DNA of 64,000 bases, from contig NZ_AP018823.1 of NCBI RefSeq assembly GCF_002217795.2, forward strand, positions 4,650,001 through 4,714,000, written 5' to 3'. Shown piece by piece: positions 18,998 through 19,765 of this stretch. Under the pieces are notes generated by a model. It searched no databases and had not been told where the DNA came from. It saw nothing but the letters and a program-made list of their open reading frames with translations. The stretch is from Aquitalea magnusonii. GTDB taxonomy: Bacteria; Pseudomonadota; Gammaproteobacteria; Burkholderiales; Chromobacteriaceae. Both the position numbers and the translations under genes were made by a program. Every line of letters begins with the position of its first letter. Positions within the stretch are counted from its first letter, which is position 1.

Positions 18998-19075
18998 TTG
19001 TCAAAGACCGTAGGAGCCGCAAGGCTTAATCGCAAGTCACTGCCCGGTGGCCTGCATCCTGCGCAGATGGTGTAC
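18998..19075 (+). promoter_or_regulatory. ribosomal L10 leader (autoregulatory RNA element)
   Basis: The stretch AAAGACCGTAGGAGC and the later CCTGCGCAGATGGTG match the core of the L10 leader that binds the L10-(L12)4 complex. ACCGT-AGGA (19007-19015) pairs with TCCT...ATGGT (19057-19071), and AGCC-GCAA-GGCT makes an internal hairpin with a GNRA loop. In other bacteria this element represses rplJL translation. Here a complete tRNA-Thr gene lies between it and rplJ. Confidence 0.75.
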
Positions 19076-19103
19076 CCGAAAGTAGGCTTCTGAAGAGTTC
19101 AGG

Positions 19104-19178
19104 GCTCATGTAGCTCAGGGGTAGAGCACTCCCTTGGTAAGGGAGAGGTCGGCGGTTCAATTCCGCCCATGAGCACCA
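19104..19178 (+). tRNA. tRNA-Thr (anticodon GGT), inside the rplJ leader region
   Basis: The 75-nt cloverleaf has acceptor GCTCATG/CATGAGC, anticodon arm CTCCCTTGGTAAGGGAG, T-arm GGCGGTTCAATTCCGCC and encoded CCA. It matches the copy at 15348 except for two compensated pairs (acceptor pair 3 C-G to T-A; one T-stem pair A-T to G-C). It sits 28 nt after the L10 leader and 92 nt before the rplJ start codon, on the same strand. Confidence 0.97.
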
Positions 19179-19270
19179 GTTTCCCTTCTCTATGTTGTCT
19201 CCTGATACAGGTCGCCGCTGCAAAGCGGAGCAGAAATCATTCTGCTTCATTTCAGTCTAGGAGATAGACC

Positions 19271-19765
19271 TTGAGTCTCAATATCGAAGATAAAAAGGCA
19301 GTCGTTGCTGCTGTAGCTGCCGAGCTGGCCGCTGCACAGACCCTCGTCATCGCCGAATATCGGGGCATCGAGGTAAGCAGCATGACCAAGCTGCGCGCTC
19401 AAGCGCGTGAGCAAGGCGTTTACCTGCGCGTTCTGAAGAACACGCTGGTTCGCCGTGCGGTTGCTGGTACCCAATTCGAAGCGCTGGCCGAACAAATGGT
19501 TGGCCCGCTCGTTTACGGTATCTCTGCCGATCCGGTTGCTGCTGCCAAGGTGCTGCATCAATTTGCCAAGGCTGACGACAAGATCATCGTCAAGGCAGGT
19601 TCCTACAATGGCGCGGTACTGAATGCTGCTCAGGTTGCTGAGTTGGCGTCCATCCCGAGCCGCGAAGAACTGCTGTCCAAGCTCCTCTACGTTATGCAAG
19701 CTCCGGTTGCTGGCTTCGCCCGCGCCCTGGCTGCATTGGCAGAGAAGCAAGCCGAAGCCGCTTAA
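19271..19765 (+). CDS. rplJ: 50S ribosomal protein L10
   Basis: L10 anchors the L12 dimers of the ribosomal stalk to 23S rRNA. The 164-residue protein begins [19 protein letters not shown] and has the alanine-rich helical C-terminus that binds L12. The start codon is TTG, placed after AGGAGATAGACC; no ATG gives the conserved N-terminus. A small hairpin (AGCAGAA/TTCTGCT, 19229-19246) lies just upstream. Expression is probably tied to the L10 leader, subject to the intervening tRNA. Confidence 0.97.

Follow-up and report, generated by a model that had tools for sequence, protein, structure and literature searches.

A complete tRNA-Thr(GGT) gene stands between the L10(L12)4-type autoregulatory leader and rplJ of Aquitalea magnusonii, and the order leader–tRNA–rplJ was found in 55 of the 56 complete intervals of the family Chromobacteriaceae; the arrangement, originally predicted from this single genome, is thus stronger than that view allowed, being family-wide and conserved. 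Neither chance nor an assembly accident accounts for such a number, and the leader that the tRNA splits is otherwise normal. The explanation that is tentatively preferred, at somewhat less than an even chance, is that L10 feedback would act on the nascent RNA, after which the tRNA would be excised and the message would escape.

The window (the whole stretch of 64,000 nucleotides that was analysed) carries on its + strand, in this order, tRNA-Tyr, tRNA-Gly, tRNA-Thr(GGT), tuf, tRNA-Trp, secE, nusG, rplK, rplA, leader, tRNA-Thr(GGT), an element round the ribosome binding site, rplJ, rplL and rpoB; gene names were assigned from sequence and gene order. The open reading frames of rplK (L11, 17799–18230), rplA (L1, 18231–18926) and rplL (L12, 19802–20173) were named from position and sequence, that of rplJ (L10, 19271–19765) from its homologues, of which the closest with a name belong to Aquitalea (98–99% identity; Chromobacteriaceae, Neisseriales); rpoB, downstream in the operon, was placed at 20328–24503 by its ATG in the sequence (the frame as listed opens at 20193). 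The TTG start of rplJ at 19271, as originally assigned, agrees with the TTG found in 40/40 distinct tRNA-bearing intervals.

The leader had been predicted at 18998–19075; it is real and somewhat larger (18970–19084, + strand), and consists of a 5' hairpin, a kink-turn stem with an AAAGAC loop between six inner and six outer pairs, an arm, the conserved UUAA and the closing CCUGCGCAGAUGG. It was delimited with a covariance model, R1. Leaders were picked by motif from 159 upstream stretches (120 distinct; 11 without the motif, some of them contig-cut, were excluded), and 41 chosen leaders (18 from Chromobacteriaceae, 23 others, E. coli absent) were aligned. The 23-pair structure gave 96.5% of cells paired in this alignment; at 15 of the 23 pairs both partners had changed, a number reached by 2 of 500 shuffles, and the covariation score was 0.529 against a shuffled 0.218, with 0 of 500 shuffles reaching it. 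With the structure slid along the alignment, no more than 49% of cells were paired, a control that favours the structure, which came from the same alignment. An absence of the leader fold in a covariance search had been named as evidence against the prediction; the fold is present, R1 giving 94.7 bits (E 1.3e-24) as its sole match at E ≤ 1 in the 64-kb window, and the same leader as its sole match at E ≤ 0.001 in the whole genome (150 of 1826 first-look candidates scored).

Outside the model, R1 recovered a leader of E. coli K-12 between rplA and rplJ (L171:2787–2876, 32.2 bits, E 9e-8), which we take to be the published L10 site. It also matched 59 of 60 genomes from other gammaproteobacterial families, none of them in the model and one matched over part of the model only; the 60 were taken, mostly as the best-scoring and one per further family, from 125 new matching genomes. 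The Rfam model RF00557 (L10_leader, gathering score 44 bits) found nothing in 18900–19310 up to E 10 and nothing anywhere in the genome. In the control it matched 4 of 14 genomes, E. coli being among the non-matches; since it misses E. coli too, RF00557 is blind to the proteobacterial form of the leader, for which a proteobacterial model such as R1 is suited, and it was dropped as proof of the leader in favour of R1. Other weak Rfam matches in the leader–rplJ stretch lay under their gathering scores, were partly the tRNA read on the opposite strand, and were set aside.

Binding of L10 is reported (PMC4538822) to need the kink-turn and UAA, and at the sequence level both features are present in the window leader. 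By its sequence the element is a proteobacterial-type L10 leader, for which binding of L10(L12)4 and repression are predicted. On its 5' side the leader is abutted at 18941–18964 by a strong hairpin without a U run (fold prediction); just upstream of the leader, a hairpin that differs in sequence seems to be present in several relatives, and two-tRNA genomes have a tRNA there instead.

The tRNA-Thr(GGT) was located by ARAGORN at exactly the predicted positions, 19104–19178, on the rplJ strand; it scored 73.6 bits with RF00005 and has the cloverleaf, the GGT anticodon and an encoded CCA. All 103 tRNAs found upstream of rplJ (redundant locus set) likewise lie on the rplJ strand. An rplJ match was obtained in 59 Chromobacteriaceae genomes (56 complete intervals, three contig-cut; two further genomes gave no rplJ match). 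Among the complete intervals the tRNA-Thr is present between rplA and rplJ as one copy in 50 and as two copies in five; of the three contig-cut intervals, two show the tRNA, and in the other most of it is present at the contig edge. Upstream of rplJ no tRNA was found in 31 genomes of the same order outside the family (fetched kilobase; 31 fetched from 56 with a match, 28 families), nor in 620 upstream bases of each of 60 genomes that represent further families of the class.

Among the complete family intervals that of G015 (L029) alone lacks the tRNA, and it retains the leader; L048, a named record (Neisseriaceae bacterium TC5R-5), was taken as the same genome on the basis of the same leader length and motif. 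The leader of G015 has a long arm and, at 76 bits, scores lower with R1 than any other of the 56 family intervals. In genus g5 (Vogesella) five genomes (L025, L026, L028, L117 and L125, with named records L045, L046 and L060) have the order tRNA–leader–tRNA–rplJ, with the extra tRNA-Thr(GGT) just 5' of the leader. The simplest reading is a single insertion, probably in an ancestor of Chromobacteriaceae, and one loss.

A paralogous tRNA-Thr(GGT) lies immediately upstream of tuf (15348–15422, + strand) and differs from the rplJ copy at four positions. A tRNA-Thr(GGT) match was obtained in 61/61 family genomes and two or more in 57; the remaining four had a single match: G015, two incomplete genomes (61% and 88% completeness) and G002, in which this match is the contig-cut one on the rplJ side. 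In 21 genomes the rplJ copy was compared with a copy about 3.6–4 kb upstream (the tuf context was read in the window only): the two were identical in 8 and differed by 2–6 bases in 13, as expected for paralogues with some gene conversion. The rplJ tRNA is a paralogue of the tuf-linked tRNA-Thr, the probable source of the insert. It looks usable, judging from the full RF00005 score, the encoded CCA and the identity with the other copy in 8/21 genomes. In L027 and L139 there is an A–C mismatch in the T stem of the rplJ-linked tRNA, perhaps early decay. In one genome a partial tRNA-Thr match (G043:C10:9792–9831, query 36–75, 93%) lies about 190 bases past the tuf-side copy (9529–9603) and may be left over from another duplication.

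The tRNA is flanked on both sides by conserved leader sequence. The AAAGAC loop, all six inner pairs and UUAA occurred in every one of 53 distinct leaders with the tRNA, and the six outer pairs in 51; for 67 distinct tRNA-less leaders the corresponding figures, in the same order, are 61, 66, 65 and 55. As leaders were chosen by a motif covering part of the stem, lost leaders outside the family go uncounted in these figures, and no complete family interval has lost its leader. R1 matched 56/56 complete family intervals, a partly circular count with 18 of the 41 training rows from the family. Between leader core and tRNA runs a linker (19071–19103, + strand; the 5' flank of the tRNA), the first bases of which overlap the end of the R1 match; AGG occurs in it in 39/40 tRNA-bearing vs 28/65 other intervals. 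After the tRNA follows the element round the ribosome binding site (19179–19270, + strand): UCUCCUGA (anti-Shine-Dalgarno), GGUCGCCG, a hairpin and the AGGAG Shine-Dalgarno sequence. By motif counts the anti-Shine-Dalgarno, GGUYGCC and GGAG motifs were each present in 40/40 distinct tRNA-bearing intervals, and in 30/65, 50/65 and 63/65 others, respectively.

Measured from where the leader core ends, and less 75 bases, the distance to rplJ had a median of 119 (106–141) in 55 tRNA-bearing intervals vs 121 (58–185) in 28 tRNA-less ones; with spacing so nearly equal once the tRNA is subtracted, little besides the tRNA was added. Several tRNA-less relatives (e.g. L140, L082, L141, L146 and L080) have a predicted hairpin in the same linker, so the site seems tolerant of a folded insert. 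A useless leader should drift, and the leader has not decayed in the tRNA-bearing lineages; this is the main argument for L10 acting before processing. Judged from these alignments, the conservation argues that L10 feedback still works in these lineages, most simply on RNA that would be as yet unprocessed, although it could instead reflect some other use of the leader.

In the region 15000–19400 consensus scans found + strand promoter-like sites at 15074 and 17707 only (4 on both strands vs 2.3 in shuffles, a weak count). The second, a sigma-70-like TTGGCA-17-TATACT before rplK (17707–17735, + strand, a consensus match only), is most likely the nearest promoter of a presumed rplK–rplA–leader–tRNA–rplJ transcript. 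A promoter-like site at about the same place before rplK was seen in 24/36 family loci; the other 12 had no site in the 2 kb searched. A strong promoter between tRNA and rplJ had been named in the original prediction as a result that would speak against it; no + strand promoter-like site was found from leader to rplJ in the window by these scans, which may miss unusual promoters, and none between rplA and rplJ in 36 family loci (one of them the tRNA-less L048). The stretch 18850–19350 held no intrinsic-terminator-like site on the + strand, such as a transcription attenuator would have before the gene. With leader, tRNA and rplJ on one strand and no promoter- or terminator-like site intervening in the scans, a single transcript most likely carries all three. 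That most of the rplJ mRNA comes from an unseen promoter lying past the tRNA and before rplJ, the leader and tRNA belonging to a separate upstream transcript, is very improbable: consensus scans miss many promoters, as the 12 of 36 loci without any site illustrate, but the 78–99 bases from tRNA to rplJ are largely conserved leader motifs, with no site in the window or the 36 loci, and the conserved leader would be left without a target.

The scans bear also on the level at which L10 acts. In the B. subtilis rplJL leader, kink-turn and UAA are the L10 target, as in the window they would be, and regulation is by transcription attenuation (PMC4538822); RF00557, the Rfam model of that leader, has no match in the window stretch. 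Were L10 in Chromobacteriaceae to act on transcription inside the leader, by attenuation or Rho, before the polymerase reaches the tRNA, excision would be irrelevant to feedback and the tolerated downstream tRNA would be accounted for. This is judged rather unlikely: B. subtilis has a terminator, whereas in the window there is no + strand terminator-like site in or after the leader; the motifs near the ribosome binding site, kept in 40/40 intervals, point to translation; and E. coli, with a homologous leader, represses translation (PMC10931766). The E. coli rplJ leader resembles that of the window in its kink-turn stem, UUAA, position between rplA and rplJ and distance from the ribosome binding site, and differs in being shorter, without the second arm, and in having no tRNA in the stretch. 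The detailed mechanism of L10 repression in E. coli is described in the same review (PMC10931766) as unsettled, the site being far from the ribosome binding site; it is for this reason spacing and conservation that would have to carry the view of the tRNA as a neutral insert.

The course of events under the preferred explanation, feedback on nascent RNA followed by excision, would be as follows. A tuf-linked tRNA-Thr copy would have been inserted, probably once, in an ancestor of Chromobacteriaceae and retained, the insertion point being the linker that joins the distal L10-binding element, one half of the leader, to the other half, the element round the ribosome binding site. A single transcript, started probably before rplK, would span leader, tRNA and rplJ; L10(L12)4 would read the nascent, unprocessed RNA, in which the folded tRNA, with both ends adjacent, would be a nearly neutral insert. 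RNase P and 3' nucleases would later remove the tRNA and detach the L10 site, so that each rplJ–rplL–rpoBC message would be repressible only before excision and would afterwards escape feedback. Excision that kept pace with the binding of L10 would leave the feedback weak.

Predicted folding backs this explanation little. The mean predicted cost of opening the Shine-Dalgarno sequence over 55 distinct intervals was 2.9 kcal/mol in the precursor and 3.8 kcal/mol in the excised message, opening being costlier after excision by >0.5 in 43 of the 55 and the reverse in 3. For 16 representatives the costs were (kcal/mol): precursor 3.0, leader stem enforced 3.3, excised 3.8, shuffled upstream sequence 3.6; for the window: 4.0, 4.1, 4.4 and 3.9, respectively. 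The sign of the mean energies fits a leader that would help the Shine-Dalgarno sequence open; their size is too small to carry a mechanism. An open/closed switch, in which the AGG before the tRNA and the Shine-Dalgarno sequence would compete for UCUCC, was considered and rejected as suggestive but weak, the energies hardly differing from those of shuffles.

The stronger reading put forward originally, that feedback is traded against tRNA excision, is possible and not favoured. With fast excision dominating, most rplJ message would be without the L10 site, feedback would disappear or be given up in exchange for tRNA supply, and tRNA maturation would be coupled to the synthesis of L10, L12 and RNA polymerase. 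The anatomy, and the higher opening cost of the excised message (3.8 vs 2.9 kcal/mol, as above), speak for this; it is nevertheless held to be improbable, as the leader is not decaying in tRNA-bearing lineages and the energy gap is small: in the 16 representatives the precursor stands at 3.0 kcal/mol and shuffled upstream sequence at 3.6 kcal/mol.

The rate of excision may depend on the flanks of the tRNA. Bacterial RNase P favours U at N-1, and G(-2)G(-1) is reported to be tenfold slower; a stem-loop near the tRNA leader slows the enzyme about tenfold, and pairing of the leader with RCCA or with distal leader sequence has effects of orders of magnitude (all from PMC10731613). U at N-1 was found in 0/32 distinct rplJ-tRNA flanks vs 35/79 distinct genome flank pairs (seven further repeats of an rRNA-linked tRNA pair excluded). 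At the other tRNA-Thr copy N-1 was G in 19 and A in 2 of 21, with U in none; the bias, common to both copies, is a property of the tRNA and not of the rplJ site, and the N-1 base was rejected as a mark of a slowed rplJ tRNA. G(-2)G(-1) in the window was rejected as an rplJ-specific slow signal on the same ground, the tuf copy having it too. The missing U, the base favoured by RNase P (PMC10731613), and the predicted hairpins of tRNA-less relatives in the same linker would suit a tRNA that seldom leaves the transcript and acts there as a folded leader spacer. This is highly improbable: U is never at N-1 of the other copy either, so its absence is not site-specific, and the tRNA retains its cloverleaf, its CCA and its near-identity with the other copy.

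The two flanks paired more strongly with each other at the rplJ tRNA than at the other copy in 21/21 genomes, with mean duplex energies of -8.9 vs -3.9 kcal/mol. Corrected for composition (22-base flanks), mean z was -0.8 at rplJ vs +0.9 at the other copy, again in the same direction in 21/21 genomes, a contrast due in part to flanks of the other copy that pair below chance; with shorter flanks pairing was stronger at rplJ in 20/21 (16 bases) and 19/21 (12 bases). When flank partners were exchanged among 10 genera (one genome each, 22-base flanks), own partners were better, median z -3.7; without g3 and g4 the median was -2.0 to -2.2, without g8 also about -1.5, and without g6 also -0.7 to -0.8. 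Genera g3 and g4 have 12–14 flank pairs and some g8 genomes 7–10; in the window pairing is at chance (z about -0.1, 22-base flanks). Flank pairing as a family-wide rule was therefore rejected: it beats the other copy in 21/21 genomes, but shuffles in some genera only. The pairing, strong in some genera and unproven in Aquitalea, could slow excision and may allow some form of coupling between feedback and maturation.

The same pairing would be needed for a clamp across the tRNA that keeps the detached leader on the rplJ message as a working split leader. The superiority of own flank partners over those of other genera, the 12–14 pairs in g3 and g4 and the excess over the other copy in 21/21 genomes agree with it; the signal is, however, driven by g3, g4, g8 and g6 and window pairing is at chance, and such a clamp is regarded as improbable too. 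A bolder and unlikely extension is that the tRNA is a timer: repression by L10 would end once the tRNA has been cut out, and the rate of that step, reduced by flank pairing, would fix the repressible span of each rplJL–rpoBC message; genera with long flank helices may keep the excised leader clamped as a split leader, and the five two-tRNA genomes would release the leader as a free RNA that could take up L10.

Two kinds of known system come near to this arrangement. E. coli thrT-tufB is a tRNA–tuf transcript, and such transcripts have, like the window (with tRNA-Tyr, -Gly and -Thr before tuf), a tRNA-Thr immediately 5' of a gene for translation; in none that we know of does the tRNA split a protein-binding leader from its gene. 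In metY-nusA a tRNA is processed out of messenger RNA. To our knowledge, neither there nor in RNase P-cleaved mRNAs is an autoregulatory element cut off its target gene. Cleavage of polycistronic mRNAs by RNase P has been reported (titles cited in PMC11143913), and tRNA or tRNA-like structures processed out of mRNA would be the likeness of both to the window. No prior report of a tRNA between an L10 leader and rplJ was found in the open-access papers searched.

In Chromobacteriaceae, then, a cutting site lies between a repressor site and a ribosome binding site, both kept family-wide; nature supplies one apparent loss (G015) and five genomes with a doubling. The arrangement makes it testable whether both halves must share one RNA for repression, and for how long, and it bears on the dosage of L10/L12 and of RNA polymerase, whose genes follow.
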